This document shows, in pieces, positions 10,389 to 32,541 of a DNA stretch of 64,000 nucleotides (its first letter is position 1; each line of letters opens with the position of its first letter). Source of the DNA: an uncultured Candidatus Thioglobus sp. (GTDB lineage: Bacteria; Pseudomonadota; Gammaproteobacteria; PS1; Pseudothioglobaceae). The notes below the pieces were generated by a model. It made no database searches. It was not told where the DNA came from and worked only from the letters and a program-made list of their open reading frames with translations. The stretch lies in assembly GCA_905182815.1 (NCBI GenBank), contig CAJJCX010000004.1, positions 62,001 through 126,000 on the forward strand. The letters are read 5' to 3'. The translations under genes were made by a program, and so were the position numbers.

Positions 10389-10390
10389 AT

Positions 10391-11360: not shown

Positions 11361-11415
11361 TAATAGTAGAAATTTAAATACGATTTCAACATCACTATCA
11401 AAAAAAAATAGCATG

Positions 11416-11443
11416 TGATATAATATTTTGCAATCGTATGCAT
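11416..11443 (+). promoter_or_regulatory. Extended -10 promoter with overlapping LacI-type operator, operon 1
   Basis: TGATATAAT at 11416-11424 is a perfect extended -10 element (TGnTATAAT). Four bases later comes TTGCAATCGTATGCAT (11428-11443), an imperfect palindrome with central CG as expected for a LacI-family operator, lying over the predicted start of transcription. The same arrangement with the same spacing occurs at 22487-22514. A LacI regulator is encoded in the operon at 16192, so autorepression is likely. No good -35 hexamer is visible. Confidence 0.75.
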
Positions 11444-11490: not shown

Positions 11491-12543
11491 ATGGCTAAAA
11501 TTGAACTAAAAAACATTACGAAGCGTTGGGGTGATTTCGTTGGTGTAGATAACTTTAACCTTACTATTCCTGACGAAGAGTTTTTGGTATTACTTGGGCC
11601 ATCAGGCTGTGGAAAAACTACTACAATGCGAATGATTGCTGGACTTGAAACTGTCACTAGTGGAGAGGTGCTGATTAATGGTGAGATTGTAAATAATCTC
11701 GAGCCAAAGGATCGTGATGTTGCAATGGTCTTTCAGTCATATGCCCTCTATCCAAATATGACGGTATATGAAAACATTCGCTTCCCATTAAAAGTAAGAA
11801 ATATTGACAAAGAGCTTCATAAAGAAAAAGTTATGAGGGCTTCTGCAATGGTTGAGCTCGATGATTTCTTACATCGCAAACCATCAGAGCTTTCTGGGGG
11901 TCAAAGACAAAGAGTAGCTTTGGCAAGAGCAATTGTTAGAGAGCCGACAGTATTTTTAATGGATGAACCACTTTCAAACCTTGATGCTAAATTACGCGTC
12001 TCTACCCGAGCGCAAATTAAAAACCTCCAACACAAGTTACGCGTAACAACAATCTATGTAACACATGATCAGGTTGAGGCAATGACACTTGCAGATCGTG
12101 TTGTTGTTATGAACAATGGACTCGTCCAACAGGTTGGAACGCCTCAAGAAATATACAATACTCCTGCCAATAGTTTTGTTGCAAGCTTTATTGGTTCGCC
12201 TGCCATGAACTTGATGAAAGGAACAATAGCAGATGGAGTCTTCTCTTGTGATAATGTAAAAATTGAAGGCCTGAATAAAAAGCATTCTGGCGATATAACC
12301 CTCGGATTTAGAGCGGAAGATGCATCCATTGTGAAAAGTAAGGGAGCGATTAAAGCAGCAGCATTTTCAATGGAGTTATTGGGAGACATGACCATGGTTT
12401 CAGTTAAGGCTGGTGGTGATTTAATTTCCATAAAGTCTGATAAAAATTATTATGCCAAGATTGGTTCAACAGTTATGGCAAATGTGCCAGCAAATTTATG
12501 CCTACTTTTCAGTTCTAAAACTGGAAAACTGCTTAAAAATTAA
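11491..12543 (+). CDS. ABC transporter ATP-binding protein, MalK/UgpC type
   Basis: A 350-residue ATPase of a carbohydrate-type (CUT1) ABC importer. It has Walker A GPSGCGKTT (residues 36-44), the signature LSGGQRQR, Walker B VFLMDEP, the switch-histidine segment VTHDQ, and a C-terminal TOBE region after about residue 240. It is the first gene of operon 1, whereas the matching binding protein and permeases are in operon 2 (22583-25823). No other ATPase is present in the window and both operons share an operator, so it very likely energises that transporter. No clear Shine-Dalgarno sequence precedes the ATG. Confidence 0.92.
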   Translation: MAKIELKNITKRWGDFVGVDNFNLTIPDEEFLVLLGPSGCGKTTTMRMIAGLETVTSGEVLINGEIVNNLEPKDRDVAMVFQSYALYPNMTVYENIRFPLKVRNIDKELHKEKVMRASAMVELDDFLHRKPSELSGGQRQRVALARAIVREPTVFLMDEPLSNLDAKLRVSTRAQIKNLQHKLRVTTIYVTHDQVEAMTLADRVVVMNNGLVQQVGTPQEIYNTPANSFVASFIGSPAMNLMKGTIADGVFSCDNVKIEGLNKKHSGDITLGFRAEDASIVKSKGAIKAAAFSMELLGDMTMVSVKAGGDLISIKSDKNYYAKIGSTVMANVPANLCLLFSSKTGKLLKN

Positions 12544-12562
12544 AAAATTGGAGATTTAAAAA

Positions 12563-13048
12563 ATGGACCATAACGAGCAATCCAAAATGACACTTGCTGT
12601 TGTTAAGGCTATGGAAGAGGCCTTAAGTACTAATTCTAATAATATGGAAAAGCATTTTCATAAAGATTTTCGTTGGATGGGTAATAATGGATGTGGTACC
12701 AAGAAAAGTCTTGAAGAGTTTCGTAATAATTGGCAGCTCCCTCTGAGAGCTGCTTTTTCAGACCGAATTTATAATACTGATAAATTTTTAGTAGATGGTG
12801 AGTGGGCGTCTTGCTTTGGCCATATTGATGCTATTCATAGTGGAGAATTCATGGGTATAGCGCCAACTAATAAGCGCGTAAAAATTCACTATACAGATTT
12901 TTGGGAAGTTAAGGATGGGCTCATAATAGACAACTGGGTAACTGTTGACTTTCCAAGTATTTTGTCACAACTTGACGTGGATGTTTTTAATGGTCAAGGC
13001 TGGGAGGCTTATGATCGAGGCGAGATTGCTCCTGCAAAGCCAAACTAA
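12563..13048 (+). CDS. SnoaL-like (NTF2-fold) protein, single domain
   Basis: A 161-residue protein resembling SnoaL-like polyketide cyclases. Typical elements are [39 protein letters not shown] and [23 protein letters not shown]2-fold proteins may act as cyclases, hydrolases, isomerases or binding proteins, so no reaction can be assigned. Three two-domain relatives with the same GIAPTNK/NWV-type block occur in the same regulon (14370, 17218, 27434). It lies 19 bases after the ATPase. Confidence 0.82.
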
Positions 13049-13059
13049 TTGGAGATATT

Positions 13060-14370
13060 ATGGCGATAACATATTTAAAAAAAGGTAAGACAGATGCTGC
13101 TAAGGCTATCGATGATGCTGAGGTTAGTGAGATTGTAAAAAATACTTTAAGATCCATTGAGGATAGAGGCGATGAGGCAGTTAGAGAGTTTGCAGAAAAA
13201 TTTGATAACTACACTCCAAAATCCTTCAAATTAACCCAGACAGAGATTGACAATTTAATAAAACAAGTTTCGACCCAGGATCTTGAGGACATTAAGTTTG
13301 CTCAAGAACAAGTTAGAAACTTTGCGCAAGCGCAGAGAGATTCTATGAAGGATATAGAGGTAGAGACTATGCCTGGCGTTATCTTAGGACATAAAAACAT
13401 CCCAGTTCAATCGGTTGGGTGCTATATCCCAGCAGGTAAGTTTCCAATGGTTGCGTCAGCGCACATGTCTGTTGTAACTGCTAGTGTTGCAAAAGTTCCA
13501 AGAATTATTGCTTGCACGCCTCCCTATAAAGGCTCTCCAAATCCTGCCGTTATCGCTGCAATGCATCTTGGTGGTGCTCATGATATATATGTCATAGGAG
13601 GCATTCAGGCTGTTGGGGCAATGGCTCTTGGTACTGAAACAATAGACCCAGTTGATATGCTTGTTGGCCCTGGAAATGCATTTGTTGCTGAAGCTAAAAG
13701 GCAATTATTTGGAAAGGTTGGAATTGACTTGTTTGCTGGACCAACAGAGACTATGGTGATAGCTGATGAAACGGTAGATGCTGAATTATGTGCAACAGAT
13801 TTGTTAGGTCAGGCTGAGCATGGATATAACTCACCAGCTGTCCTGGTAACTAATAATAAAAATCTGGCAGAAGAAACAATCTCTGAGATAGATAGAATTT
13901 TAAAGATTCTTCCAACAGCAGAAACTGCTTCCGTGAGCTGGGAAGAGTATGGTGAAATAATTCTTTGTGATAGCTATGATGAGATGTTAGATGTTGCTAA
14001 TGAAATTGCATCTGAGCATGTTCAGGTAATGACAGATCGCGATGATTGGTTTTTAGAAAATATGCATTCCTACGGAGCGCTATTTTTAGGACCAAGAACA
14101 AATGTTTCTAATGGTGACAAAGTAATTGGAACCAATCATACTTTACCAACAAAAAAAGCTGGACGTTATACTGGTGGTCTTTGGGTTGGTAAGTATCTTA
14201 AAACGCATAGCTACCAAAAAATTACAACGGATGAGGCAGCTGTAAAGATTGGTAGATACTGCTCAAGACTATGTATGCTTGAGTCGTTTGTTGGCCATGC
14301 AGAGCAAGCTAATATTCGAGTAAGGCGATATGGTGGAGAGGATGTTCCTTATGGCAAGGCAGCGCAGTAG
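13060..14370 (+). CDS. Histidinol-dehydrogenase family protein, HpsN-like (sulfopropanediol 3-dehydrogenase-like)
   Basis: A 436-residue zinc NAD-dependent alcohol/aldehyde dehydrogenase of the HisD fold. Counterparts of the HisD zinc ligands are visible: GQAEHG (Gln and His), the Asp in [14 protein letters not shown] and the late His in FVGHAEQ. It is not a biosynthetic histidinol dehydrogenase by context, and several features ([32 protein letters not shown]) resemble HpsN, which oxidises the terminal alcohol of 2,3-dihydroxypropane-1-sulfonate. No sulfolactate lyase or hpsOP-like set is adjacent, so a different polyol is equally possible. It overlaps the next gene by one base. Confidence 0.8.
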
Positions 14371-15425
14371 TGCATAGAATTAATTATCTTAAGGAGCTAA
14401 TAAAGCCCCTAAGATTGAGTATGTATAGTTTTACCGAAGATGAGGTTCGAAAAAATCTTAACTCCTTGTTTTATGAGGAAGCTACTATTCATCTTTCTCA
14501 TCCTTTTGGAGATATTTCAGGACCAACTAATTTTTATAACCAGGCGCTTAAACCCTTGTTTGAATCAATGCCAGATTTAGAAAGACGCGATTATATTGTT
14601 ATCGGTGGAAAAACAGAAAAGGATTTAGAGTGGATAGGATGTGCTGGTTTTTATAATGGTACATTCTTGAAACCTTTTTTAGATATTCCGCCAACAGGCC
14701 ATATAGCCCACATGCGATTTCATGAATTTTATTGCTTTCGGGATGACAAAATAATAGAAGTTCAGGCTTTATGGGACATCCCAGAACTAATGATGCAGTC
14801 AGGCTCTTGGCCAATGGCCCCATCACTTGGAAGAGAATGGTGTGTTCCAGGTCCAGCAACGATGGATGGAATTTCAGATAAGCCTTATGATCTAGAAAAA
14901 AGTAACACTTCAATGGAGCATATTTTAGGAATGGCTGATGCTATGAAAAAACACCCTTCTGAGGGCGGCCCTGAGATTATGAAAATGGATTACTATTGGC
15001 ATCCAAAAATGAATTGGTATGGACCATCTGCTATAGGAAGTGGAAGAGGAGTTGAAGGTTTTAGAAATTGGCATCAAATTCCATTTTTGAATGCTATGCC
15101 TGATAGAGGAAAGGATACAACTTATAGTAAGAGAGATGGCTGGGGAGATAAAGTAGGCTACCACTTTTTTGGCGATGGAGATTATGTAGCCGTAACTGGC
15201 TGGCCAAATATGAAACAAACTCTTACCCATGATGGTTGGATGGGCATAGCTCCAACTAACAAAGAAGTTTTTCTTCGCTCTCTAGATTTCTGGAGGCTCG
15301 AGGAAGGAAAAATAAGAGAAAACTGGGTGATGCTTGATATCCTTGATATTTATGATCAATTGGGTGTCGACGTACTCGGAAGATTAAGAGAGTTTAACAA
15401 AGCAAGAAATACAAAAGGATATTGA
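14370..15425 (+). CDS. Two-domain SnoaL-like protein
   Basis: A 351-residue protein made of two SnoaL/NTF2-like halves. The first (about residues 20-165) contains DISGPTNFYNQALKPLFESMPD; the second (about 195-345) contains GVEGFRNWHQIPFL and ends with [20 protein letters not shown] and ENWVMLDILDIYDQLGVDVL, very like the protein at 12563. Start: the GTG at 14370 overlaps the previous stop; an ATG at 14421 is an alternative. The next gene overlaps by four bases. No catalytic reaction can be assigned. Confidence 0.8.
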   Translation: MHRINYLKELIKPLRLSMYSFTEDEVRKNLNSLFYEEATIHLSHPFGDISGPTNFYNQALKPLFESMPDLERRDYIVIGGKTEKDLEWIGCAGFYNGTFLKPFLDIPPTGHIAHMRFHEFYCFRDDKIIEVQALWDIPELMMQSGSWPMAPSLGREWCVPGPATMDGISDKPYDLEKSNTSMEHILGMADAMKKHPSEGGPEIMKMDYYWHPKMNWYGPSAIGSGRGVEGFRNWHQIPFLNAMPDRGKDTTYSKRDGWGDKVGYHFFGDGDYVAVTGWPNMKQTLTHDGWMGIAPTNKEVFLRSLDFWRLEEGKIRENWVMLDILDIYDQLGVDVLGRLREFNKARNTKGY

Positions 15426-16192
15426 GTGTGAAGCTTCCAACTACACCATCGTTTAGACTAGATGACAAGACTGCTTTAATTACAGGAGCCTCATCTGGTA
15501 TTGGTCTTGGTTGTGCAGTAGCCTTGGCTGAAGCAGGCGCACACGTTGTTGTATCAGCCCGACGTATTGATAAACTTCATTCTGTTGTTGATGCAATGAA
15601 AGCGAAAGGGTTAAGTGCTGAAGCAATGGTGATGGATGTTGCTGATACAAATGCAATTAAAGAAACTATTGATAATAAAGGACCATTCGATATTTTAGTT
15701 AATAGCGCTGGTTTAGGTAGGCACGCACCTTCTAAAGATACATCATTAGAAGATTTTGATGCGGTAATGAATGTTAATCTTCGCGGCGCATACTTTGTAA
15801 CTCAAGCAGTAGCGAATGGATTAATAAAAGCAAAAAAACCTGGCTCATTAATCAACATTTCTTCTCAGATGGGTCATGTAGGTGGGATTGATAGAGCAGT
15901 TTATTCAGCATCAAAGCATGCGGTAGAGGGATTTACAAAAGCTATGGCCATTGAGTGGGGCTCCCATCAAATTAGAGTTAATACAATCTGCCCAACATTT
16001 ATACGTACGCCGCTTACTCAATCAACTTTTGATAATCCTGATCGTAAAGAGTGGATTGAAAGTAAGATTAAAATTGGCCGAATTGGAGAGGTTGAAGATA
16101 TCATGGGGGCTGTAGTATTTTTAGCTTCCGCTGGCTCATCAATGGTTACTGGCTCTGCACTTATGGTTGATGGAGGCTGGACTGCTGACTAA
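15422..16192 (+). CDS. SDR family NAD(P)-dependent oxidoreductase
   Basis: A 256-residue classical short-chain dehydrogenase: TGASSGIG at about residues 20-27, NSAG for the NNAG motif, catalytic serine in INISSQMGH, and YSASK for YxxxK, ending in MVDGGWTAD. It probably oxidises or reduces an alcohol intermediate of the operon 1 pathway, possibly in tandem with the HpsN-like dehydrogenase. The start may be the TTG at 15422, overlapping the previous gene by four bases, or the GTG at 15428. Its stop overlaps the LacI start (TAATG). Confidence 0.9.
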   Translation: MSVKLPTTPSFRLDDKTALITGASSGIGLGCAVALAEAGAHVVVSARRIDKLHSVVDAMKAKGLSAEAMVMDVADTNAIKETIDNKGPFDILVNSAGLGRHAPSKDTSLEDFDAVMNVNLRGAYFVTQAVANGLIKAKKPGSLINISSQMGHVGGIDRAVYSASKHAVEGFTKAMAIEWGSHQIRVNTICPTFIRTPLTQSTFDNPDRKEWIESKIKIGRIGEVEDIMGAVVFLASAGSSMVTGSALMVDGGWTAD

Positions 16193-17214
16193 TGCTAAAT
16201 AAAAAAGTCACGTCATTAGAAGTAGCAAAATTAGCTGGCGTTAGCCAGTCTGCAGTATCTCGCGTATTTACACCTGGAGCTTCATCCTCTAAAAAAACTA
16301 ATGAGCTAGTTCGAAAGGCTGCTTTGAAGCTTGGATATAGACCTAATATAGTAGCGCGATCACTCATTACTGGAAAGACAAAAATTATAGGCCTTGTTGT
16401 TGCCTACTTAGATAATTACTTTTATCCTGAAGCGTTAGAGCTTCTATCAGGGGCCCTTCAAAAGAATGGTTATCACGTATTGATCTTTATGGCCACAAAT
16501 ACTTCAGGAAATATTGATAACGTAGTGGAAGAGATTTTAGACTATCAGGTGGATGGAATCATTGCAGCATCTGTTGGAATGTCTACTAATTTAGCATCAA
16601 GATGTTCTGATGCTGGCATCCCAGTTGTTTTATTTAATCGTACTCAGGATGACGAAAGACTGTCAGCAGTTACCTCTGATAATGAACTTGGGGGGCAAAA
16701 AATTGCACAATTTCTCTGTGATAATGGCCATACACGAATCGGTTATATAGCAGGCTGGGAAGGCGCATCTACTCAAAGAGATCGAGAGAAAGGATTTACT
16801 GACGAACTTAAAAAGAATGGACAGGGTCTTTTTGCTCGAGAAGTTGGTAACTTTAATTTAGACGAGGCTCGTCAAGCAGCACGATCAATGTTCACAGCAA
16901 GTGAAATACCAGATGCAGTTTTTGTGGCAAATGACCATATGGCATTTGCAGTAATGGACGTAATGCGCTTTGAGCTTGGACTAAAAATACCTGACCAGGT
17001 TTCAGTTGTTGGTTTTGACGATGTCCCGGTTGCCAAATGGCTAGCTTATAGTCTAACAACTGTAAGGCAGCGTGCAAATCGTATGGTGGACGAAACAGTT
17101 GCTATATTAATTGACAGTATTGAAAATAACTCAACTAAGCCAAGACGTATAAAAATTGATGGTCCTCTAATACTGAGAGGATCTGCAAAAATTTTAGATA
17201 ACTATGGAGTTTAA
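16192..17214 (+). CDS. LacI family transcriptional regulator
   Basis: A 340-residue repressor: an N-terminal helix-turn-helix with hinge (TSLEVAKLAGVSQSAVSRVF, about residues 7-26; GYRPNIVARSL) and a periplasmic-binding-protein-like effector domain (KIIGLVV..., VANDHMAFAV, VVGFDDVPVAKW). It is embedded within operon 1, one base overlapping the SDR gene. Two identical-type palindromes with a central CG, in front of operons 1 and 2, are its probable operators; the inducer is likely the transported substrate or a pathway intermediate. Confidence 0.93.
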   Translation: MLNKKVTSLEVAKLAGVSQSAVSRVFTPGASSSKKTNELVRKAALKLGYRPNIVARSLITGKTKIIGLVVAYLDNYFYPEALELLSGALQKNGYHVLIFMATNTSGNIDNVVEEILDYQVDGIIAASVGMSTNLASRCSDAGIPVVLFNRTQDDERLSAVTSDNELGGQKIAQFLCDNGHTRIGYIAGWEGASTQRDREKGFTDELKKNGQGLFAREVGNFNLDEARQAARSMFTASEIPDAVFVANDHMAFAVMDVMRFELGLKIPDQVSVVGFDDVPVAKWLAYSLTTVRQRANRMVDETVAILIDSIENNSTKPRRIKIDGPLILRGSAKILDNYGV

Positions 17215-17217
17215 TTT

Positions 17218-18186
17218 ATGAAAGGTTTTGATTCAAAATATGCTAATTTTCCAGATTGGATAAATGGCATTACTCATGAAATTTGGGAAGATCGAGGAAT
17301 TGATAAACTGCTTTATCTTTATTCGGATGATATTATATTAAGATCCCCACACTCCCTGATAATTGGCAATAAGCCAGTTATAGAGGCGACCAAAGCAACC
17401 TTATCTGAATTTCCAGATCGTCAACTCTTAGGTGAAGATGTAATCTGGTCTGGCACTCCTGAGACGGGAATGTTGTCATCCCATAGAATTATATCAACGG
17501 CATCTCACATGGGCGACGGGCAGTTTGGTAAAGCAACGGGTACAAAAATTGTTTTTAGAACGATAGCAGATTGCCATGCTATTAATAATCAAGTTAATGA
17601 TGAATGGCTAATTCGTGATGTAGGTGCTATGGCAAGACAGCTGGGCGTTCATCCAAAAGACTTTGCTAGAAAGCAGATAGATTCAGAGGGTGGTATGGAT
17701 AAATGCCTACACCCTTTTAAAGATTCTATGGATCAACCTGGGCCATATACAGGAAAGGGCAACACTAATGAGTGGGGCGAAAAGTATGTTGATATATTAA
17801 AACGGATTATGGACTCTGATCAATCAGTGATTAATGATGAGTATGACCGTGGTTGTGATTTGGAATATCCTGGTGGCGTTTCAGGCCATTCCTACTCGGA
17901 TGCAGATGAGTTCTGGACGGGCCTTCGATCTTCAATGCCGAGTGCAAAATTTACTATCGAGCATCAAATTGGAAGAGAAGATCCATATATGTCTCCCCGC
18001 GCAGCTGTTCGATGGTCTCTAAAAGGTAAGCATGATGGTTGGGGAGTTTTTGGTGAACCTACAGGTGCTGATTTATATGTGATGGGAGTTTCTCATGCTG
18101 AATTTGGTCCATGGGGCTTAAGAAGAGAGTACACATTATTTGATGAGACTTCTATGTGGAAGCAAATAATCCTCAAGACTGGATGA
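17218..18186 (+). CDS. Two-domain SnoaL-like protein, divergent
   Basis: A 322-residue protein of two NTF2-like halves: the first begins with WINGITHEIWEDRGIDKLLYLYSDDIILRSP in overlapping pieces, and the second with EKYVDILKRIMDSDQS and SDADEFWTGLRSSMPSAKF. It shares the plan of the neighbouring SnoaL-like proteins but lacks their GIAPTNK block, having GEPTGADLYVMG at that point. It follows the regulator gene by three bases. Its function is unknown; it is presumably a pathway enzyme or binding protein. Confidence 0.75.
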   Translation: MKGFDSKYANFPDWINGITHEIWEDRGIDKLLYLYSDDIILRSPHSLIIGNKPVIEATKATLSEFPDRQLLGEDVIWSGTPETGMLSSHRIISTASHMGDGQFGKATGTKIVFRTIADCHAINNQVNDEWLIRDVGAMARQLGVHPKDFARKQIDSEGGMDKCLHPFKDSMDQPGPYTGKGNTNEWGEKYVDILKRIMDSDQSVINDEYDRGCDLEYPGGVSGHSYSDADEFWTGLRSSMPSAKFTIEHQIGREDPYMSPRAAVRWSLKGKHDGWGVFGEPTGADLYVMGVSHAEFGPWGLRREYTLFDETSMWKQIILKTG

Positions 18187-19154
18187 TAATGACTTTAGAA
18201 GAAATGGAAAAGTGTATTGTTCGATATGCTGATTTAAAGCCTTGCAAAACTGCATTTATTGACGCACATACGCCTGGATCAAATCAGAAAGATAACTTTA
18301 CAATTATTGGTTCTGGGGTATCAGAGAGTCCTGATCAGTATGTTCATATTGATCAATCACCAGGCTTTAATATTGGCGCTGCGGGCCAACCTCCAGGCTG
18401 CATAAATTCATTACACTCGCACACAACTGCTGAAGTATTCTATGTATTCAAGGGTCGATGGCGTTTTTTCTGGGGACGCTATGGTGATTCTGGAGAGGTA
18501 GTTGCAGAAGAAGGCGATATGGTTAATATTCCTACAGGTATGTTTCGCGCATTTGAAAATGTTGGTGAGGATTATGGAATGTTGATGGCAATACTTGGAG
18601 GTGATGATGCAGGGGGAGGCGTTACATGGGCACCTGAGGTTATTAATGATGCCAAAGACTTTGGCCTGATTTTGGGTGAAAATGGATTATTATATGATAC
18701 TAAAAAAGGGGAGATTTTGCCAAAAAATGTCAACCCAATGCCATTATTAACTGAAACTAATCTTAGAAATTTTTCTGAAATTACAACTGAAGAGTTTATT
18801 AATAATTTTTTTGTCAGCTCATCAGAGTTAAAGCAAAAGTCACAGAATTTACCGCTAAATGTTATTGGGGTAGATGGGATTTTAAAAGATCGGCCTGGTT
18901 TTGAAGTTGACTACATTACATCTGACACTTTTACTGGAGAGCAATACTCTTCAAGTCGACACGAGGTTAATATGATAATGAGTGGTGAATGGTCTCTAGA
19001 GTGGGATGACAATGTTGCAACTCTTTCTCCTGGGGATACATGTTTGATACGCCCTGAAATGCTGCATAAGATTGTCCCTAAAGATTTGAGAAGTGCAAGT
19101 CTTTTCAGGGTTACAAAGACTGATGATCAAGCAGGCCCAACATGGAGAAGCTAA
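18183..19154 (+). CDS. Bicupin protein
   Basis: About 323 residues with two cupin domains. The N-terminal one retains metal ligands in LHSHTTAEVFYVFKGRWRF (two His and a Glu) and a later GDMVNIPTGMFRAFEN. The C-terminal one (SSRHEVNMIMSGEWSLEW, LSPGDTCLIRPEMLHKI) keeps the fold but fewer ligand positions. Such proteins include dioxygenases, isomerases and sensors. I chose the ATG at 18183, which overlaps the previous stop as ATGA; the ATG at 18189 is equally possible. It is followed by the HAD-like gene after 17 bases. Confidence 0.82.
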   Translation: MIMTLEEMEKCIVRYADLKPCKTAFIDAHTPGSNQKDNFTIIGSGVSESPDQYVHIDQSPGFNIGAAGQPPGCINSLHSHTTAEVFYVFKGRWRFFWGRYGDSGEVVAEEGDMVNIPTGMFRAFENVGEDYGMLMAILGGDDAGGGVTWAPEVINDAKDFGLILGENGLLYDTKKGEILPKNVNPMPLLTETNLRNFSEITTEEFINNFFVSSSELKQKSQNLPLNVIGVDGILKDRPGFEVDYITSDTFTGEQYSSSRHEVNMIMSGEWSLEWDDNVATLSPGDTCLIRPEMLHKIVPKDLRSASLFRVTKTDDQAGPTWRS

Positions 19155-19171
19155 TTTTTAAGGACATGATA

Positions 19172-19834: not shown

Positions 19835-19872
19835 GGGAATGACCTTTTTTATATATTATTAAGGAGTAATGA

Positions 19873-21006: not shown

Positions 21007-21695
21007 CACCCCTTGTAATGATTCCTGGAATGATGTGTGACGAGCGCATTTTTGCGCCACAAATAGAGGCGCTTCTCGCTGAGGTATCGGTGCATATTGC
21101 AGATATTTCTAAACATGACAATATTAGCGACTTGGCGGCCGATGTTTTAAGTCATGCGCCACCAAAATTCAGCCTTGCTGGCCACTCTATGGGTGGTATT
21201 GTAGCTATGGAAATTTGTTCACAGGCACCAGAAAGAGTTGAAAAATTGGTGTTAATTGATACCAATCCTAAATCTGAATTAGAGGAAGTGAAGGCCAAGC
21301 GTGAGCCTCAAATTAGTGATGCTTTATCAGGAAAATTAATAAATGTTATTCGTGATGAGATGAAACCTAAATATTTAGCGGATAGCGATAATCCAGATAT
21401 TATTTTAAATATCTGCATGGATATGGCCCTTTCTTTAGGTCCTAAAGTTTTTGTTAACCAGTCAAGAGCCCTCCAAGGAAGAATTGATCAAGAGGAGGCC
21501 CTTAACTCACTTAATATTCCCGTGTTGATAATGTGCGGCTTGGAAGATAAATTATGCCCTCTAGAGAAGCATGAATTGATGCATAATATAATTAGTAACT
21601 CAACTTTAGAGGTAATTGAAAATGCCGGTCATTTGCCAACATTAGAACAACCAGAGAAAACTACGGAGATATTAAAAACATGGCTTATGAACTAG
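21003..21695 (+). CDS. Alpha/beta hydrolase
   Basis: A 230-residue alpha/beta-hydrolase with the nucleophile elbow GHSMGG, acid in CGLEDKLCP and catalytic histidine in ENAGHLPTLEQP. It begins PLVMIPGMMCDERIF, the oxyanion-side segment typical of the fold. It could hydrolyse an ester, lactone or C-C bond produced earlier in the pathway. It overlaps both neighbours (four and sixteen bases), indicating translational coupling. Confidence 0.88.
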   Translation: MTPLVMIPGMMCDERIFAPQIEALLAEVSVHIADISKHDNISDLAADVLSHAPPKFSLAGHSMGGIVAMEICSQAPERVEKLVLIDTNPKSELEEVKAKREPQISDALSGKLINVIRDEMKPKYLADSDNPDIILNICMDMALSLGPKVFVNQSRALQGRIDQEEALNSLNIPVLIMCGLEDKLCPLEKHELMHNIISNSTLEVIENAGHLPTLEQPEKTTEILKTWLMN

Positions 21696-22387
21696 ATCAA
21701 GAATTACTTACCCTTCTTCAATCAGTAGATACACCTACTGTATGTAACGCAATTGAAGTAGCACAAGGCAAGAGGGGTTTTTCAGAATTTACTCGTGGAA
21801 CCATGATTTGCTCGGCACCAAAAGGTGGAGCAATGGTTGGTTTTGCCAAAACTGCAAAAATTGCTGCACTGAGTCCGCCAACAGAAGATCAAGAGATAAT
21901 TAAAGAGCGGAGGATGAATTATTACCGCTATATGTCAGAAGTTACTGGCCCTGCCGTTGCAGTCATAGAGGATGTTGATTATCCAAATTGTATTGGAGCT
22001 TATTGGGGTGAGGTTAATACGAAAGTTCACAAAGGGTTTGGTCTTTCTGGTGCGCTGACTAACGGAGTTATGAGAGATCTTGGTGATCTTGCAGAAGATT
22101 TTCCAGTCGTTGCAGGCTCTATCGGTCCAAGTCACGGATTTGTTCACGTACGAGAAATTGATACAAAAATTAGTGTTCTTGGTATGAGTGTTTCGCCAAA
22201 TGATTTAATTCATGCTGACCTTCACGGCGCAGTTGTAATCCCTAAAGAGGTTATTAATGGTTTACAGGACGCTATCCATAAGTTATTTGCTTCAGAGCAG
22301 TTGATTCTTGGTCCTGCTGAAAAGAAAGATTTCAATTTTGATAGCTTTAAAAGTGCATGGGAAGATTTCGAAAAATCAAGAACATAA
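21680..22387 (+). CDS. RraA family protein (HMG/CHA aldolase-like)
   Basis: A 235-residue protein of the RraA / 4-hydroxy-4-methyl-2-oxoglutarate aldolase fold. The family motif is GALTNGVMRDLGDL, with the conserved Arg-Asp pair, preceded by the SVDTPTVCNAIE segment. Family members are divalent-metal aldolases or decarboxylases of oxo-dicarboxylates as well as RNase E inhibitors. As the last gene of a catabolic operon, a C-C lyase that releases central metabolites is the more likely role. Confidence 0.82.
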   Translation: MAYELDQELLTLLQSVDTPTVCNAIEVAQGKRGFSEFTRGTMICSAPKGGAMVGFAKTAKIAALSPPTEDQEIIKERRMNYYRYMSEVTGPAVAVIEDVDYPNCIGAYWGEVNTKVHKGFGLSGALTNGVMRDLGDLAEDFPVVAGSIGPSHGFVHVREIDTKISVLGMSVSPNDLIHADLHGAVVIPKEVINGLQDAIHKLFASEQLILGPAEKKDFNFDSFKSAWEDFEKSRT

Positions 22388-22486
22388 ATTTTTTGAGTTT
22401 TTAGTAAGGTTGTTATTGAGAAATTTTAGATAGTATGTCTCGGTTTAATATGCTAAATAAAAAGTTATATAGAGATTAAGACTCTG

Positions 22487-22514
22487 TGATATAATTGATT
22501 GCAATCGTATGCAA
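22487..22514 (+). promoter_or_regulatory. Extended -10 promoter with overlapping LacI-type operator, operon 2
   Basis: TGATATAAT (22487-22495) is followed after three bases by TTGCAATCGTATGCAA (22499-22514), a 16-bp palindrome with two mismatched pairs and a central CG. The -10 hexamer to operator offset of nine bases is identical to the copy at 11416-11443, and the preceding GTG is shared. It governs the binding protein, permease, GMC and SnoaL genes. The remaining part of the 22388-22582 gap shows no gene or clear terminator. Confidence 0.78.
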
Positions 22515-22582
22515 TATATTTTTTAATATTTGTTACGATGTACTATTAATTTGTATTTAATTGAAAAAAAAGGAGTGATATT

Positions 22583-23813
22583 ATGTTTTTAAGAAAAATC
22601 GCTACAGTTGTAGCGCTTACTACTCTAGCTTCAAGTGCATGGGCCGGTTGCGGCATCTCTGAAGGCAGAGTTAGTATTGTTGGTAATGAGTTTCCAGCGA
22701 TTCAAACAATCGGTGCAGGCGCAATGGAGTGTGCAGGTGGTGGTGTTACAGTTGAAACAAACCTAACTGCTGATCATCAAAAAATTAATCTTCCAGGTAT
22801 GACTGGTAACCCAGCTGAATTTACATCAGCTATTGTTGCTAACTCATCAATTGTTGCACTTATGAACAATGATGTGATTAGACCTTTGAATGATCTAGTT
22901 GCTAAGCATGGACAGGGTCTTCAGAAAAGCCAGTTAGTTACAATTGATGGAAATATTATGGGTATTGCCTTTATGGCGAACGCTCAGCATTTGACTTATA
23001 GATCAGATGTTTTGAAAGATTTAGGAATTGCGGTTCCATCTACTTATGAAGAAATGTTAGCTGCTGCTGAAAAAATTCGGAACTATAATTTGATGGCAGA
23101 ACCCAATTGGCGGTGCTTATGCAGCCGGTTGGAACTTAGCTGAAGAATTCGTCAATATGTATATGGGTTATGGTGGTGAGTTCTTTAAGCCAGGAACAGC
23201 TGAGATTGCTGTTAATAACCAACATGGTGTAGATTCACTAAACATGATGAAAGCTTTGTCTGAATATATGAACCCAGACTTCCTAACACATGACTCAAAC
23301 GCAACTAGTGCCGAATGGAAAGCTGGTAATGTTGCTCTGATGAATATGTGGGGATCACGTATTGGAGCCCTTAAAGGCGATGAAGTAGATGCTGCTGTAG
23401 TAGCAGCTACAGCTACTGCTGGTCCTATGACAGTTGGTGGTGGTACAACTGCAGCTTCAACTCTCTGGTGGGATGGATTTACTGTAGCTAAGAATATTTC
23501 AGATACAGATGCAGAGGCTACTTTTATGGCTATGATGCATGCAATTCGTCCAGCTATGTTGAACGAAACGACTTCGCCACAAGCTGTTTGGTTAATTGAT
23601 GGTTATGAGCCTACTCCAGCTGCTGCAGGTGTATTTGCTGCTGCTGCAATGGGAACTAAGCCGTATCCAATGTTGCCATATGCAGGTCTAATGCATTCAG
23701 CTGCAGGTGCTGAATTAGTTGACTTCATGCAAGGCAAAGAAACTGCTAAAGAAGCTTTAGCTGGTTTAGAAGCGGCATACACAACTGCTGCGACAGAAAA
23801 AGGCTATTTATAA
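22583..23813 (+). CDS. Sugar-type ABC transporter substrate-binding protein, one frameshift
   Basis: An extracytoplasmic binding protein of about 410 residues with a signal peptide ending AWA at about residue 21. The frame breaks near 23098-23106: dropping one C from the CCC there joins the halves as MAEPIGGAY and continues through GWNLAEEFVN into the second part, which starts MGYGGEFFKPG. All else looks intact, including WGSRIGALKG and WWDGFTVAKN. It precedes two CUT1 permeases, and a terminator-like hairpin follows it. The start has a strong AGGAG. Either a sequencing indel or a recent mutation is possible. Confidence 0.85.
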
Positions 23814-23843
23814 GCTTTTGTAAGTTGTTTGTCTCCTAAGATT

Positions 23844-23877
23844 AGGGCGTGTGTTTCACATGCCCTTTTCTTTTTTT
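23844..23877 (+). terminator. Rho-independent terminator/attenuator after the binding protein gene
   Basis: AGGGCGTGTG at 23844-23853 pairs with CACATGCCCT at 23857-23866 (one G-T pair), with a three-base loop and a following run of eleven pyrimidines, nearly all T. It lies between the binding protein and the first permease gene, where partial termination commonly makes binding protein mRNA more abundant than permease mRNA. Confidence 0.8.
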
Positions 23878-23911
23878 GTATAATTGAGTTTCTCTAATCT
23901 TATTATTCCAT

Positions 23912-24940
23912 ATGAAGCATAAGACTTTTTTTTGGTTCTTTTTACCTACAGCCCTAGCAATGTTTTTGTTCATTGCCTTGCCCTTAACTTCGATTGTGAG
24001 TCAGTCACTTCATACACCTCATGACGCAGGTATCTGGTTGTTGTTGAATCGTGTGATCCATTTGGTTGTAAATCTGAAACTACTATTGATCATCAGGCAA
24101 GTCAAAAAATCAACGAAGAGCAAGCCACAAGGTAAGTGGGTTGGATTTCAAATCTATACTGACAGAAACCACCTAGCCTTTAAAGAGGTTGGTGAGTTCT
24201 GGGAGAGTAAGACAAGCTTTATTGATTTTGTTTCCAGTCTAAACGATCTTCCATTTTATCGAGCAATGGGCTTTACTTTGACTTATACCTTTGTGGTAAC
24301 CCCACTGGTTATATTATTTGGATTTATAATTGCACTAGCAGTAAATTCACTGCATCGACACTTGAAAGGATTCATGGTGTTCTTTTCATTGCTGCCGATG
24401 ATTGTAACCCCTTTGGTTGGTTCGTTGATTCTGTTTTGGATGATTGATGCACGAGGTATTATTGGTTCAGGCCTCCAAGAATTATTTGCAGATCCTACCT
24501 TGTCACTAAAGGCATCAACTGGCCTAACATGGATAACACTTATTGTATACGGTGTTTGGCACTCTGCCCCTTTTGCCTTCATTGTTTTTTACGCTGGACT
24601 TCAGACTGTTCCACAAGAAACTATAGAAGCAGCAATGATTGATGGGGCCACACGCTTTCAGCAAACTATTCATGTCATTGTGCCTCATTTATCTCCACTA
24701 GTAGCATTTGTGGCTTTAATTCAGCTGATGGATAATTTCCGAGTATTTGAGCCAATAGTTGGTTTTAGTGCTTCGGCACATGCGACCTCTCTTTCATGGA
24801 TTATATGGAATGATATTGGCCAAGAGATAAGACTTCTTTCTTCAGCGGCAACGACATCAGTGTTGACAATAATTGGTGTCATCATACTTCTTATGCCAGT
24901 TTTAATTAGAACATGGCGTGAATTTAATCCAGAGAAATAA
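23912..24940 (+). CDS. ABC transporter permease, MalF/UgpA type
   Basis: A 342-residue permease with an N-terminal membrane helix, a long periplasmic loop and five further helices, and the EAA loop EAAMIDGATRFQQTIHVIVPHL. The stretch coded by about 24030-24130 (residues 40-74) is rich in Leu/Ile/Lys and unlike its surroundings; the other frame there reads ESCDPFGCKSETTIDHQ and INEEQAT, then continues as GKWVGF if one A is removed at about 24129-24130. Thus the ORF is open only because two opposite single-base shifts cancel. Confidence 0.85.
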   Translation: MKHKTFFWFFLPTALAMFLFIALPLTSIVSQSLHTPHDAGIWLLLNRVIHLVVNLKLLLIIRQVKKSTKSKPQGKWVGFQIYTDRNHLAFKEVGEFWESKTSFIDFVSSLNDLPFYRAMGFTLTYTFVVTPLVILFGFIIALAVNSLHRHLKGFMVFFSLLPMIVTPLVGSLILFWMIDARGIIGSGLQELFADPTLSLKASTGLTWITLIVYGVWHSAPFAFIVFYAGLQTVPQETIEAAMIDGATRFQQTIHVIVPHLSPLVAFVALIQLMDNFRVFEPIVGFSASAHATSLSWIIWNDIGQEIRLLSSAATTSVLTIIGVIILLMPVLIRTWREFNPEK

Positions 24941-24941
24941 T

Positions 24942-25823
24942 ATGACCTCAAATCAAATAAAAAGACCATTAGGACTCCAACTATTAATATATGGCTTTGT
25001 ATTGTTCTGGTTAATTTTGGCAGCCTTTCCATTTTTATGGACTATGTGGGGTTCATTCAAAGTAGAGCTGGATTTTTTCTCAAAAGGAGACTGGACTAAT
25101 GTATTTTCTGGGGTAAGAACACAAGTAGTATATGGAAAATCTTTTACAGGCGCAGGTTATGAGGGCGCATGGATCCAAGAAGAGTTTTGGCGCGCTTTTT
25201 TTAATACAGCGATAGTTTGTGTTTCTACAGTACTCATATCATTAACTCTTGCAACTTTAGGCGGTTATGCGCTTTCAAGGTCTGGGTTTCGTTATTCATT
25301 TTGGCTGCTAATAATTGCACTTGTTTTTCGTGCGCTGCCTCCAATCACTCTTGTTTCTGGCTATTTACAACCCTTCTATGATTGGAATGTTTGGGGAACA
25401 TTGCCGACCACTATTATTGTTTTAGTAGCGATTAACCAGCCATTTACATTGTGGATGCTGCACTCATTTTTTCAAACAATTCCGAAAGAGCTTGATGAGA
25501 GTGCAAAGGTTGATGGGTGTACTCAGTTCCAAGCATTTCGACATGTAATTATTCCAGTAATGTGGCCAGGCGTTATTACTGCTGGACTCTTCTCATTTCT
25601 TTTGGCATATAATGATTTTGCTGTTACAGCGTTACTACTCTCTCAGGAAAACCAAACTATGGTCCCTAAAATTGCCAGCTTTATGGGCACCACTCAAACA
25701 GAAGGCAATATTATGTTTGCAGTCGCAGCAGTGGTATCTGCTATAGTTCCATTGTTTATTCTGGTTATGTTTTTTCAAAGGCAGCTGGTTAGTGGGCTAA
25801 CAGCTGGCGCAGTTAAGGGTTAG
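24942..25823 (+). CDS. ABC transporter permease, MalG/UgpE type
   Basis: A 293-residue inner-membrane protein with six hydrophobic segments and the EAA loop ELDESAKVDGCTQFQAFRHVIIP. It pairs with the preceding permease to form the translocation pore of a CUT1-type importer. The ATG at 24942 lies one base after the upstream stop; an earlier in-frame start overlaps that gene and is less likely. The downstream oxidoreductase begins three bases after its stop. Confidence 0.92.
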   Translation: MTSNQIKRPLGLQLLIYGFVLFWLILAAFPFLWTMWGSFKVELDFFSKGDWTNVFSGVRTQVVYGKSFTGAGYEGAWIQEEFWRAFFNTAIVCVSTVLISLTLATLGGYALSRSGFRYSFWLLIIALVFRALPPITLVSGYLQPFYDWNVWGTLPTTIIVLVAINQPFTLWMLHSFFQTIPKELDESAKVDGCTQFQAFRHVIIPVMWPGVITAGLFSFLLAYNDFAVTALLLSQENQTMVPKIASFMGTTQTEGNIMFAVAAVVSAIVPLFILVMFFQRQLVSGLTAGAVKG

Positions 25824-25826
25824 TCA

Positions 25827-27431
25827 TTGTCCTCGTTTGATTATATTATTATTGGCGCAGGTTCCGCCGGATGCGTTTTAGCAAATCGATTAAGCGCAGA
25901 CCCTAAAACCACCGTCTGTTTGATTGAAGGAGGCGGAAGTGATAAGAGTCCTTGGGTGCAAATTCCTGCTGGCCTTTCTGTTGCATATGACCATAAGAAG
26001 CTTGATTATGCTTACAAGGGAGTCCCACAAAAAAAACTAAACAACCGTGTAATTACTGTTAATCGTGGCAGGTGCCTTGGGGGATCGAGCTCAATTAATG
26101 GCATGATCTATATTCGTGGTAATAAGAATGATTACGATAATTGGGAGACCCTAGGTTGTAAGGGCTGGTCTTATAATGATGTCTTGCCGATATTTAAAAA
26201 ACTTGAGAATGATAAAACAGGGGGAGACCCTAAGTACCATTCAACAGTCGGTGAGTGGCCAGTTGTCATGCCACAAGAGGTCAATAAGACCGCAATGCGC
26301 TTTATTAATGCTGGCACTCATATAGGGCTTCCAAAGAATTCTGACTTTAATGATGAATCTCAATTAGGTCTGGGTATTTACAAGGTTAATCAGGATAAAG
26401 GAACTCGAGTTAATTCTTATAGGGCTTTTATTAAGCCTATTGTTTCTAGAGCGAATCTAACCATAATGACCCATGCCAGAGTCCAATCAATTGAGGTGGA
26501 AGGCGATATTGCTAAGTCTTTAAAGCTTCAAGTTAATGGTATTGATAAAGAATTATATTGTAATAAAGAGGTTCTACTATCTGCTGGTGCCATTGAGTCA
26601 CCGAGGATACTTTTATCTTCAGGAATAGGCAATAGGGAGGAGCTTGAAAAGGCAGGAATTAGTTGTCATCATAATGTTCCAGGGGTTGGTGAAAATCTTC
26701 AAGACCACTTAGATACAATGGTCACAGTTCGCTCAAAGAAAGCAGAATCAATTGGTGTTTCATGGAGGTCTTTGTTGCCCCATATAATTACCTCTCCTTT
26801 TAACTTTCTTTTTAGAAGGATGGGCTGGTGGACGAGTAATTTTGTTGAAGCTGGAGGTTTTGCAGATACAAAACTTGGTCAGCCTGAGTATCCTGATGTC
26901 CAGTTCCACTTTACGCCTATTTACCGAAGTCACCGCGGCAGAAAGTTTGAGTTTGGGCATGGGTATTCTCTTTTTACTTGCTTGTTAAGGCCGCATAGTT
27001 CAGGGTCAGTAAAAATAAAGAAGGAAGGTGAGAATCACAAGATACTTATCGACCAAAACTTTTTATCTGATACCAGGGATGAGCAAAGCATTATTGAAGC
27101 GATTAAAAAAGCGAGAGAGGTTTTATCATCTAAAGAGTTTGATGAAGTTCGTGGTGAAGAAATTGCACCTGGGAAATCTATCCAATCAGATGAGGAGCTA
27201 TTAGACTACATTCGTAAAACTGCAGTAACAGTCTATCACCCTGTTGGGACCTGCAAGATGGGGGTCGATGATTTAGCAGTCGTCTCTCCAAATGATTTAA
27301 AGGTAAAAAGAATGAATAACTTACGTGTGATTGACGCCTCTATTATGCCTAGCATAGTAAGTGGTAATACCTCAGCAGCAACCATGATGATTGCAGAAAT
27401 GGGCGCAACAATGATATTAAATAAGGAATAA
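25827..27431 (+). CDS. GMC family FAD-dependent oxidoreductase, choline dehydrogenase-like
   Basis: A 534-residue flavoprotein with the FAD motif GAGSAG (residues 10-15), the GMC signature region GRCLGGSSSINGMIYIRG, and the active-site histidine H471 in YHPVGTCKMG, ending with GNTSAATMMIAEMGA. GMC enzymes oxidise alcohols to aldehydes or ketones. The closest general type is BetA, but operon position behind a sugar-type ABC transporter and next to a SnoaL-like protein argues for a different alcohol. It appears to start with TTG. Confidence 0.9.
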   Translation: MSSFDYIIIGAGSAGCVLANRLSADPKTTVCLIEGGGSDKSPWVQIPAGLSVAYDHKKLDYAYKGVPQKKLNNRVITVNRGRCLGGSSSINGMIYIRGNKNDYDNWETLGCKGWSYNDVLPIFKKLENDKTGGDPKYHSTVGEWPVVMPQEVNKTAMRFINAGTHIGLPKNSDFNDESQLGLGIYKVNQDKGTRVNSYRAFIKPIVSRANLTIMTHARVQSIEVEGDIAKSLKLQVNGIDKELYCNKEVLLSAGAIESPRILLSSGIGNREELEKAGISCHHNVPGVGENLQDHLDTMVTVRSKKAESIGVSWRSLLPHIITSPFNFLFRRMGWWTSNFVEAGGFADTKLGQPEYPDVQFHFTPIYRSHRGRKFEFGHGYSLFTCLLRPHSSGSVKIKKEGENHKILIDQNFLSDTRDEQSIIEAIKKAREVLSSKEFDEVRGEEIAPGKSIQSDEELLDYIRKTAVTVYHPVGTCKMGVDDLAVVSPNDLKVKRMNNLRVIDASIMPSIVSGNTSAATMMIAEMGATMILNKE

Positions 27432-27433
27432 AT

Positions 27434-28447
27434 ATGACTCAAAACTTGCAAAAAGAAAAAAAATTAATTCGTGACTATTACAAGGCACTTGACTCCGCGC
27501 AAGGTACTGATATTACAAAAGTTTTAAAAAACTATATTAGTGAAGACTATATTTGGAGAGGCTTCCATCCCTTTAATGAGATTTCAGATGCTAAGGAAGT
27601 TTCAGAAATTTTCTGGCAGCCATTTCGTCATGCATTTAAAAATATTCAAAGACGTATGGATATTTTTATTGCAGGAAAAAATCAAATTGACGGATTTGAA
27701 TCCGTCTGGGTAGTTTCTATGGGCCATCTTATGGGACTCTTTGATAATGAATGGCTAGGAATTGCTCCATCAAGAAAGATGGCTTTATTACGTTACTGCG
27801 AATTTAATAAGGTTGAAAATGGAAAGATAACTGAAACTGCAATGTTTTTTGATATTCCCCATGTCATGCTGCAGGTTGGACTTAACCCATTTCCACCTCA
27901 AACAGGTGCCCATCTTGTTCAGCCAGGACCAATGACTCATGAGGGTTTGTTGTTCGAAGAACAAAATATGCAAGAAGGTGAAAAAACACTGGCTTCAATA
28001 AATTTTATGATTGAAGATATTAAGGGTTGGAAGCACACAGGAAAAATATCACTAGTTGATGAACTTAGAGCTAGCTGGAATGAAGATATGATTTGGTGGG
28101 GCCCTGCTGGTATTGGCTCGAGCTACACAATTGAAAGGTATGCTGAGCAGCACTCTGGGCCATTTAGGGCTGGATTTAAAGATCGTATATCTAATGGCCA
28201 TCTTTGTAAACTTGCAGAAGGTAATTTTGGTGGTTTTTTTGGATGGCCTAACCTTACTCTTACTCCTACCGGTGGCTTTATGGGAATGCCTGCATCGGAA
28301 AAACCAGGAGATATGAGGGTTATAGATATGTATCGCCGTGAAGGTGATAAACTCTCAGAAAACTGGATTTTCATTGACCTGTTGCATTTTTGGAAGCAAC
28401 AAGGCGTTGATATTTTAGATCGAATCAAAAAAACTCCAAGAACCTAA
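27434..28447 (+). CDS. Two-domain SnoaL-like protein
   Basis: A 337-residue duplicate-fold SnoaL/NTF2-like protein. The first half ends with WLGIAPSRKMALLRYCEF and TAMFFDIPHVMLQVGLNPFP; the second has GFMGMPASEKPGDMRVIDMY and ENWIFIDLLHFWKQQGVDIL, close to the ends of the proteins at 12563 and 14370. It is the last gene of operon 2, two bases after the GMC gene and followed by a strong terminator. Four such proteins under one regulator suggest successive steps on similar intermediates. Confidence 0.8.
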   Translation: MTQNLQKEKKLIRDYYKALDSAQGTDITKVLKNYISEDYIWRGFHPFNEISDAKEVSEIFWQPFRHAFKNIQRRMDIFIAGKNQIDGFESVWVVSMGHLMGLFDNEWLGIAPSRKMALLRYCEFNKVENGKITETAMFFDIPHVMLQVGLNPFPPQTGAHLVQPGPMTHEGLLFEEQNMQEGEKTLASINFMIEDIKGWKHTGKISLVDELRASWNEDMIWWGPAGIGSSYTIERYAEQHSGPFRAGFKDRISNGHLCKLAEGNFGGFFGWPNLTLTPTGGFMGMPASEKPGDMRVIDMYRREGDKLSENWIFIDLLHFWKQQGVDILDRIKKTPRT

Positions 28448-28457
28448 AAAACTTCTC

Positions 28458-28487
28458 AGTGAGCTGAATACAGCTCACTATTTTTAA
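28458..28487 (+). terminator. Rho-independent terminator ending operon 2
   Basis: AGTGAGCTG (28458-28466) and CAGCTCACT (28471-28479) form a perfect nine-base-pair stem with an AATA loop, followed by ATTTTT. It sits directly after the last SnoaL-like gene and separates operon 2 from the mttB-like gene. Confidence 0.88.
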
Positions 28488-30083: not shown

Positions 30084-30110
30084 GGGCACTTTTTTATTAA
30101 GGGATTCGTT

Positions 30111-32528: not shown

Positions 32529-32541
32529 AAAGAGGATTTTT

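Follow-up and report, generated by a model that had tools for sequence, protein, structure and literature searches.

A conserved, probably LacI-controlled catabolic gene cluster with MetE-like, SnoaL-like and CUT1 transporter genes in an uncultured Candidatus Thioglobus genome

A 64-kb stretch of DNA from an uncultured Candidatus Thioglobus sp. (here termed the window; contig 4, 62001–126000, of a four-contig, 1.32 Mb assembly that is ~77% complete) carries at 11491–28447 a cluster of genes for a CUT1 transporter, a LacI-family regulator and a set of enzymes, including an HpsN-like dehydrogenase, several SnoaL-like proteins, a bicupin, a MetE-like single barrel and an RraA-like protein. Our analysis indicates that this cluster is a real, conserved and probably singly regulated catabolic regulon, and that it is not a new kind of system. 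We consider it fairly likely that the cluster is a single LacI-controlled regulon of two transcription units for the breakdown of a small polyhydroxylated sugar-like or cyclitol-like compound.

An initial annotation, made from the letters of the sequence, had put the cluster forward as the best candidate for a novel system. With regard to the substrate this is a fair description, but in its architecture, a combination of LacI, CUT1, dehydrogenases, hydrolase and aldolase, the cluster is a catabolic operon of an ordinary kind. In searches of openly available full texts, we found no description of the gene set, no described pathway with the same genes that would contradict the initial annotation, and no link between homarine and the gene set; a term search of PMC6308992 gave no lead.

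Organization of the Cluster

The cluster comprises 18 plus-strand open reading frames (ORFs) with short gaps or overlaps (Table 1), which correspond to 17 genes because the ORFs at 22583–23143 and 23157–23813 are parts of one binding-protein gene. Profile matches to Pfam and NCBIfam recovered all the families listed initially. The count of seventeen tightly coupled genes was correct, but the genes do not form a single transcription unit; a 195-bp gap (22388–22582), with its own operator ahead of 22583, divides them into two head-to-tail transcription units. All four proteins proposed as SnoaL-like with an NTF2 fold scored over the Pfam SnoaL cut-off, and the fold was predicted for the 17218 protein (SnoaL3) alone. 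Alcohol oxidation by the GMC oxidoreductase, named in the initial annotation, is not part of the core; GMC is an accessory gene with homologues in 10/80 of the loci compared below, as are by the same counts the HAD-family hydrolase (3/80) and SnoaL4 (11/80). The CUT1 importer set is complete by family (binding protein, two permeases and a MalK-type ATPase), with the binding-protein gene frameshifted in the window.

Conservation of the Gene Set

A scan of named genomes with the MetE-like protein as query gave at least 586 confirmed loci, the best 80 of which were compared; at least five of the 80 come from the window's own genus, and the MetE-like gene is present in all of them by construction, because the MetE-like search chose them. 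Labels such as L026 and L118 denote compared DNA stretches or loci. Homologues were counted by tblastn (E ≤ 1e-10) without an orthology filter, so the counts for MalK, SDR, GMC and SnoaL include paralogues, and those for upstream genes and operators are lower bounds, because many loci extend no further than 10 kb ahead of MetE or are cut off by the end of a contig. The HpsN-like dehydrogenase, the short-chain dehydrogenase/reductase (SDR), SnoaL3, the cupin and the MetE-like protein occurred together in 60/80 loci. The two parts of the binding protein were found in 41/80 and 36/80, respectively, and MalK in 32/80.

Gene order was similar on annotated plasmids of Ruegeria, Octadecabacter and Marinovum, which read transporter, SnoaL, SnoaL, HisD-like, SnoaL, SDR, LacI, SnoaL, cupin, MetE-like, hydrolase and RraA. 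The exceptions are Ruegeria SCSIO 43209, which has no RraA, Octadecabacter, in which the ATPase lies beside hisD, and Marinovum, with one SnoaL fewer ahead of hisD and no SDR annotated. The initial annotation had suggested a search for conserved synteny and held that absence of the set as a unit from other genomes would speak against it; the set is kept as a unit across genomes, so this objection falls away.

Within the window's genus, a strong match to the MetE-like protein (E below 1e-200) was present in 20/29 genomes, our own included, while 31 other genomes of the family yielded no strong match and one weak one (E 8e-5); at E ≤ 0.001, matches were seen in 22/95 genomes of the whole set. 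An even sample of the class (n = 369) contained 14 genomes with a MetE-like match at E ≤ 1e-30, 10 of them at ≥57% identity. The HpsN-like protein (≥62% identity) was found in 11/369, eight of these jointly with MetE-like at ≥57% (Fisher p 9e-13), and SnoaL3 in 8/369, all inside the 10 MetE-like genomes (Fisher p 6e-15); the identity thresholds of these tests were picked after viewing the lists, and our own genome is counted. In three genomes the HpsN-like gene occurred with no strong MetE-like match, and the reverse was seen in two. The three HpsN-like genes stand in a context of HpsN-like plus SDR, joined in L145 by an FAD-linked oxidase, and these contexts offered no clue to the substrate. 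Chance assembly of the genes was rejected on the basis of the co-presence across the 80 loci and the co-occurrence in the class sample.

Variant clusters were also found. Close to the cluster in L033, L035 and L040 lie genes for a TonB receptor and a sodium:solute symporter, and no CUT1 permease was found there. In L040 and L042 the MetE-like protein is 88% identical to that of the window and the HpsN-like protein only 62%, a mosaic pointing to exchange of genes among variant clusters or else to wrong binning of a contig. A search of ORFs in the gaps for further conserved genes gave, at best, a family in six loci with no identity; ORF calls in GC-rich loci fell on antisense frames, and minor families derived from them were disregarded.

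Operators and Regulation

The 1.32 Mb genome has two exact copies of the LacI-type operator TTGCAATCGTATGCA (15-base core), one ahead of each unit, and the backward control gave 0 matches. A weaker copy with 3 mismatches is located at 11374–11389, 54 bp upstream of the unit 1 operator. Allowing 3 mismatches returned 5 matches in the window against a mean of 2.0 in shuffles; we therefore regard as meaningful the two exact sites alone, with the possible addition of the weaker copy ahead of the unit 1 operator.

Across the 80 loci, the palindrome TTGCATACGTATGCAA (2 mismatches) had 31 sites. Of these, 29 are located no more than 300 bp ahead of a listed cluster gene; they are spread over 18 loci, 4 of which belong to the window's genus and 14 of which do not. 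For 40 shuffled palindromes the mean was 0.33 sites in total and 0.125 in such upstream positions (maximum 5). Neighbouring sites (3 mismatches) were spaced by 53–55 bp in 7 pairs and by 124–158 bp in 5 pairs, and the 54-bp spacing was seen 17 times over all loci, overlapping and near-identical stretches included. Judging from the operators shared by both units, these probably form one regulon under the one LacI-type regulator, which would bind at both sites, as the initial phrase "under one regulator" had it.

The pattern TTGCANNCGNNTGCAA was present at least once in every one of 30 whole carrier genomes, with backward control matches in one genome. Many of these matches are TTGCAACCGGTTGCAA, which means that the genome count cannot be credited solely to the cluster regulator. 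TTGCAACCGGTTGCAA recurs in many of the 30 genomes, several of which have two copies 3–13 kb apart, and it is likely the operator of another LacI-family regulator.

Conserved Catalytic Residues

The HpsN-like protein scored 382 bits against solved HpsN and 260 or less against solved HisD. According to PMC11382572, His126 and Lys353 of HpsN touch the sulfonate, while Glu318, His319 and Asp352 matter for activity. The zinc ligands Gln/His/His, the catalytic Glu-His and the Asp are kept in the window protein and its homologues, and 74/75 aligned sequences have the equivalent of Lys353. At the position of His126, 71/75 have Met (Met130 of the window among them), 3 have Leu and one, a second HisD-like protein of 35% identity, has Tyr. 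These counts, and those below for the SDR, cupin, hydrolase and RraA-like protein, include the window and near-identical sequences of the same genus. The cluster protein shares the fold family, the zinc ligands, the Glu-His and the Asp352 and Lys353 equivalents with HisD and with HpsN, the (R)-DHPS 3-dehydrogenase of Cupriavidus (PDB 8v35; DHPS, sulfopropanediol); in contrast to HpsN, the cluster protein has Met for His126 and a different genomic context, and profile scans of the cluster proteins recognised no sulfo-lyase or other sulfonate gene. The initial label "HpsN-like" therefore holds for the family, but the Met at the His126 site speaks against a reading as a sulfonate (DHPS) enzyme. 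The NCBIfam hisD domain model (434.8 bits, cut-off 243.8) does not discriminate, because the HpsN of a second locus in the same genome, which bears His at the 126 position and is 45% identical to the cluster protein, passes too (412.7 bits).

That second locus (L128; contig 4, 193001–210000) has, by eye, a TRAP transporter, an SDR and a zinc alcohol dehydrogenase alongside, together with a galactarate-dehydratase-like gene that is below cut-off and by eye UxaA/SuyB-like.

In the MetE-like protein, H243-x-C245, E277 and C343 were invariant in 11 aligned sequences, a pattern that we take to be the zinc-ligand site of MetE. The barrel and this His-x-Cys/Glu/Cys pattern are shared with single-barrel methionine synthases (PRK04326; PDB 3rpd, 1ypx), from which the protein differs in its catabolic-cluster setting and in a score far under the B12-independent methionine synthase equivalog cut-off (99 bits, cut-off 406). 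The catalytic Tyr and Lys of the SDR were invariant in 81 sequences, and the Ser/Asp/His triad of the alpha/beta hydrolase in 61. Arg132-Asp133 of the RraA-like protein, presumably the catalytic pair of RraA/HMG-CHA aldolases (LigK type), was found in 57/57 sequences; against the LigK equivalog the protein scored 28.5 bits, below the cut-off of 304.5.

The cupin was predicted to fold as a bicupin (predicted local distance difference test, pLDDT, 81, with low-confidence stretches), its nearest folds being MncA, oxalate decarboxylase and the quercetin and salicylate dioxygenases at a template modelling (TM) score below 0.5. HxH and Glu of the first cupin were invariant in 82 sequences, corresponding to the cupin HxH...E motif, and Arg occupies the position of the third His of many cupins. 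Three of the four SnoaL proteins have a two-stretch family match or about twice the one-domain length. The predicted fold of SnoaL3 has two NTF2 domains (pLDDT 95.8); it matches proteins such as Lsd19, SnoaL-type cyclases and limonene epoxide hydrolase, in most cases over a single domain at once. The solved relatives of the cupin, SnoaL3, RraA and SnoaL1 were all weak matches.

Proposed Catabolic Route

The gene set is consistent with the import, stepwise oxidation and cleavage envisaged in the initial annotation. The CUT1 ABC transporter would import a polyhydroxylated sugar-like or cyclitol-like compound. The operators lie just downstream of a -10-like element, where the LacI protein could repress both units until released by the compound or a metabolite. 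Based on its conserved zinc and catalytic residues, the HpsN-like enzyme would convert a -CH(OH)-CH2OH end to -CH(OH)-COOH with two NAD+, and the SDR may oxidise a secondary alcohol. A lactone or ester could then be opened by the alpha/beta hydrolase, or in some relatives by an L-fuconolactonase-like amidohydrolase. From their folds, the NTF2-fold proteins may catalyse proton-transfer steps, for example an isomerisation, a dehydration or a tautomerisation, and the bicupin may perform either an oxidation or a decarboxylation. The final C-C cleavage, yielding a pyruvate-level product, would fall to the RraA-like aldolase or, in a few other clusters, to an HpcH/HpaI-family aldolase. The least certain step is that of the MetE-like barrel, a putative zinc enzyme acting with a thiol and perhaps taking an alkyl or methyl group. 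Of the "polyhydroxy or methylated compound" first suggested, we retain the former; for the methylated part the presumed role of the MetE-like protein is the one pointer.

Genes next to the cluster in relatives bear on this route. Four cluster promoters were extended upstream; in L142–L144 an operator pair lies between the ATPase gene and a divergent pair of SnoaL and amidohydrolase genes, and in L141 there is one operator and a divergent SnoaL with no amidohydrolase. The SnoaL and amidohydrolase pair also stands beside the cluster in L119 (Ruegeria conchae), and L118 has an SMP-30 lactonase beside SnoaL. The amidohydrolase is closest to L-fucono-1,5-lactonase (123 bits, cut-off 400) and PDB 4dlf (74 bits), and the aldolases of L118 and L035 are most like GarL/HpaI, below cut-off. 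These lactonase- and aldolase-type accessory genes suggest a non-phosphorylative, sugar-acid-like route of import, oxidation, lactone or ester hydrolysis and aldol cleavage. Non-phosphorylative sugar-acid operons of the L-fucose, L-rhamnose and galactarate type have in common with the cluster the type of regulator and transporter and the SDR, as well as a lactonase and a GarL/HpaI-type aldolase in some relatives. In contrast to them, profile scans recognised no enolase- or IlvD/Edd-type sugar-acid dehydratase in the window cluster; what it has in its stead are SnoaL/NTF2 proteins in several copies, along with a bicupin, an HpsN-like enzyme and a MetE-like barrel.

We tentatively propose, as a possibility rather than an expectation, that the cluster encodes an undescribed and widespread marine pathway in which the zinc MetE-type barrel and at least four SnoaL/NTF2-fold enzymes carry out the central reactions on a compound that is abundant, alkylated (probably by O-methylation) and either sugar-like or a cyclohexenone. 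Retention of the block and operator in 20/29 small genomes of the window's genus (with MetE-like as marker) and in many roseobacters and relatives suggests that the cluster acts on a common dissolved compound. Because some carriers, e.g., Ruegeria, can be cultured, the substrate could be identified directly. The marine carbon cycle would thereby gain a pathway, and functions could be assigned to proteins whose only annotation at present is "ester cyclase" or "cobalamin-independent methionine synthase II family protein".

Several observations weigh against a single regulon for a sugar-like compound. Two cluster-type operator sites (L139 and L140) lie away from the cluster with no cluster gene adjoining, that in L140 having only a 27% match to a beta-keto acid cleavage enzyme (BKACE) nearby. 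The solved relatives of the binding protein were weak matches (31 bits; SmoF and others) from which no ligand could be derived. A search without a positive control detected no amidohydrolase in 29 genomes of the window's genus, and none is among the annotated genes of regions L118, L120 and L125, so the lactonase step is not general. RraA was unseen in 33/80 loci, some of them truncated, and 24/72 longer loci had neither RraA nor the aldolase. The HpcH/HpaI aldolase occurs in 4 loci, all without RraA, and in 0/44 loci with RraA, a hint that it takes the place of RraA; the p of 0.02 overstates this replacement, because the query sequences were drawn from three of the four loci, and the remaining one (L105) has a distant match of 30% that lies 8 kb away.

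The split binding-protein gene is a further point on that side, reflecting either an assembly error or a damaged transporter. Its two ORF parts are in frame as one gene, 573 bp apart, in 7/7 same-genus stretches with a closely related (>70% identity) binding protein, and the window has one extra base relative to two same-genus stretches aligned base by base; L131 and L135, of the same genus, have a different binding protein. What was initially called the 22583 protein is a 186-aa ORF and the first part alone of the split gene, not a whole binding protein. An M24-type gene (by eye Xaa-Pro peptidase-like) at 32542–33859 is likewise split by one extra base, near 33035, relative to L027 and L029. 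The two split genes hint at small indel errors in the assembly.

Alternative Substrates

An O-methylated or branched sugar, degraded by a sugar-acid route in which the MetE-like barrel would act on the methyl group, is in our estimate rather unlikely as the substrate. LacI, CUT1 and a KduD-like SDR agree with it, as do the L-fuconolactonase-like amidohydrolase and GarL-like aldolase of some relatives (both below cut-off) and the SMP-30 lactonase of L118. In Croceicoccus, Novosphingobium and Sphingobium, MetE-like paralogues of 46–50% identity are found near MetF, PurU and FolD and a DesA-like gene of the aminomethyltransferase family; the one scored against the DesA equivalog, from Croceicoccus, exceeds the cut-off. 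These Sphingomonadales paralogues may, however, simply recycle methyl-folate, the conserved core has no folate-dependent demethylase, and we know of no MetE-type chemistry on a plain methyl ether.

As a separate observation, in L121, L122 and L126 (three Sphingomonadales) genes for a small NTF2 protein and an IclR regulator come after the MetE-like paralogue, with DesA-like and one-carbon genes in the vicinity. This arrangement is possibly an unstudied part of syringate/vanillate demethylation.

The boldest specific candidate, which we regard as improbable, is a cyclohexenone such as the mycosporine/4-deoxygadusol sunscreen core. Here, oxidation of C(OH)-CH2OH by the HpsN-like enzyme, demethylation and ring cleavage by the bicupin would lead to 4-carboxy-4-hydroxy-2-oxoadipate, which RraA would cleave to pyruvate and oxaloacetate. 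On paper this chemistry would employ the HpsN-like, cupin, RraA and MetE-like proteins, and quercetin and salicylate dioxygenases are among the nearest folds of the cupin, but MncA and oxalate decarboxylase rank as high or higher in the same search. The lactonase and GarL-like accessories fit sugars better. Some carriers are Granulosicoccaceae, which are kelp-associated, and to our knowledge kelps are without mycosporines. Our searches of open full texts gave no support for this route.

A partial precedent, which favours the cyclohexenone reading, is syringate/3-O-methylgallate catabolism (Pseudomonas NGC7 and Sphingomonadales), where, according to PMC12314914, a hydrolase is accompanied by a SnoaL/NTF2-family protein proposed as the isomerase of the ring-cleavage product. 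That system further resembles the cluster in the RraA-family LigK and the MetE-like paralogue, both of the Croceicoccus region. It differs in that profile scans of the window cluster recognised neither a LigAB-type dioxygenase nor DesA/LigM, and in the CUT1 uptake and LacI control of the cluster.

An extension of the adjoining carnitine/glycine-betaine block (8910–11302 and 28563–33859), for breakdown of a hydroxylated betaine, is quite improbable and was rejected as the principal interpretation. Carnitine 3-dehydrogenase (704 bits, cut-off 592), MttB and a dimethylglycine dehydrogenase (DMGDH)-like protein do flank the cluster, also in same-genus relatives. Nevertheless, few of the 80 loci contain the flanking genes at E ≤ 1e-10 (BKACE 4, MttB 2 and DMGDH-like 7, some in the window's own genus), no exact operator lies upstream of MttB, and a hairpin is present at 28458.

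Catabolism of DHPS or a related C3-sulfonate, with the HpsN-like protein as a true HpsN, is highly improbable and was rejected, since the closeness to solved HpsN and the shared Lys353, zinc and catalytic residues are outweighed by the Met in place of the sulfonate His126 and the separate His-bearing HpsN locus in the same genome, and no sulfo-lyase was recognised among the cluster proteins.

Features of the Cluster and Flanking Genes

Table 1. Features at and around the cluster, with positions in the window; locus counts are homologues among the 80 compared loci.
Feature	Position	Strand	Remarks
LacI-type operator TTGCAATCGTATGCAT, unit 1	11428–11443	+	starts 63 bp 5' of ATPase start codon; TGTGATATAAT shortly upstream
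MalK/UgpC-type ABC ATPase (CUT1)	11491–12543	+	445 bits, cut-off 432, PRK11650
SnoaL1, one-domain SnoaL protein	12563–13048	+	Pfam; 56/80
HisD/HpsN-like zinc dehydrogenase, Met130 at HpsN His126 site	13060–14370	+	67/80
SnoaL2, double-length SnoaL protein	14370–15425	+	Pfam; 59/80
SDR dehydrogenase, gluconate 5-dehydrogenase/KduD-like (below cut-off)	15422–16192	+	72/80
LacI-family regulator	16192–17214	+	profile matches; 65/80
SnoaL3, two NTF2 domains	17218–18186	+	Pfam and predicted fold; 73/80
Bicupin	18156–19154	+	profile and predicted fold; 72/80
HAD-family hydrolase, accessory	19142–19834	+	3/80
MetE-like single barrel	19873–21006	+	profile match and alignment
Alpha/beta hydrolase, PcaD-like (below cut-off)	21003–21695	+	54/80
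RraA-like aldolase/decarboxylase	21680–22387	+	47/80
LacI-type operator TTGCAATCGTATGCAA, unit 2	22499–22514	+	starts 84 bp 5' of binding-protein start codon; TGTGATATAAT shortly upstream
CUT1 solute-binding protein gene, two ORFs through one-base insertion	22583–23813	+	insertion near 23095–23097
Hairpin with T tract, 3' of binding-protein gene	23844–23866	+	
CUT1 permease 1	23912–24940	+	54/80
CUT1 permease 2	24918–25823	+	57/80
GMC oxidoreductase, choline-dehydrogenase-like, accessory	25827–27431	+	549 bits, cut-off 605; 10/80
SnoaL4, double-length SnoaL protein	27434–28447	+	11/80
Hairpin with T tract, 3' of last gene	28458–28479	+	

The hairpin at 28458–28479 may mark the end of unit 2; as a class, terminator-like matches numbered only 18, compared with 12.6 (sd 3.7) in shuffled sequence. 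A further SnoaL match lies between RraA and the binding protein in six same-genus stretches (L026, L130, L132–L134 and L136; nine genomes compared), and L027 has an ORF that is SerB-like by eye where the window has the gap between its units.

Divergent from the cluster, 8910–11302 (minus strand) encodes a carnitine 3-dehydrogenase over the NCBIfam cut-off and a BKACE-like protein below cut-offs, likely a carnitine-to-betaine unit. Downstream, 28563–32528 carries an MttB-family methyltransferase followed by a DMGDH/GcvT-type protein, which probably serve betaine demethylation and occupy the same downstream position in several same-genus relatives.

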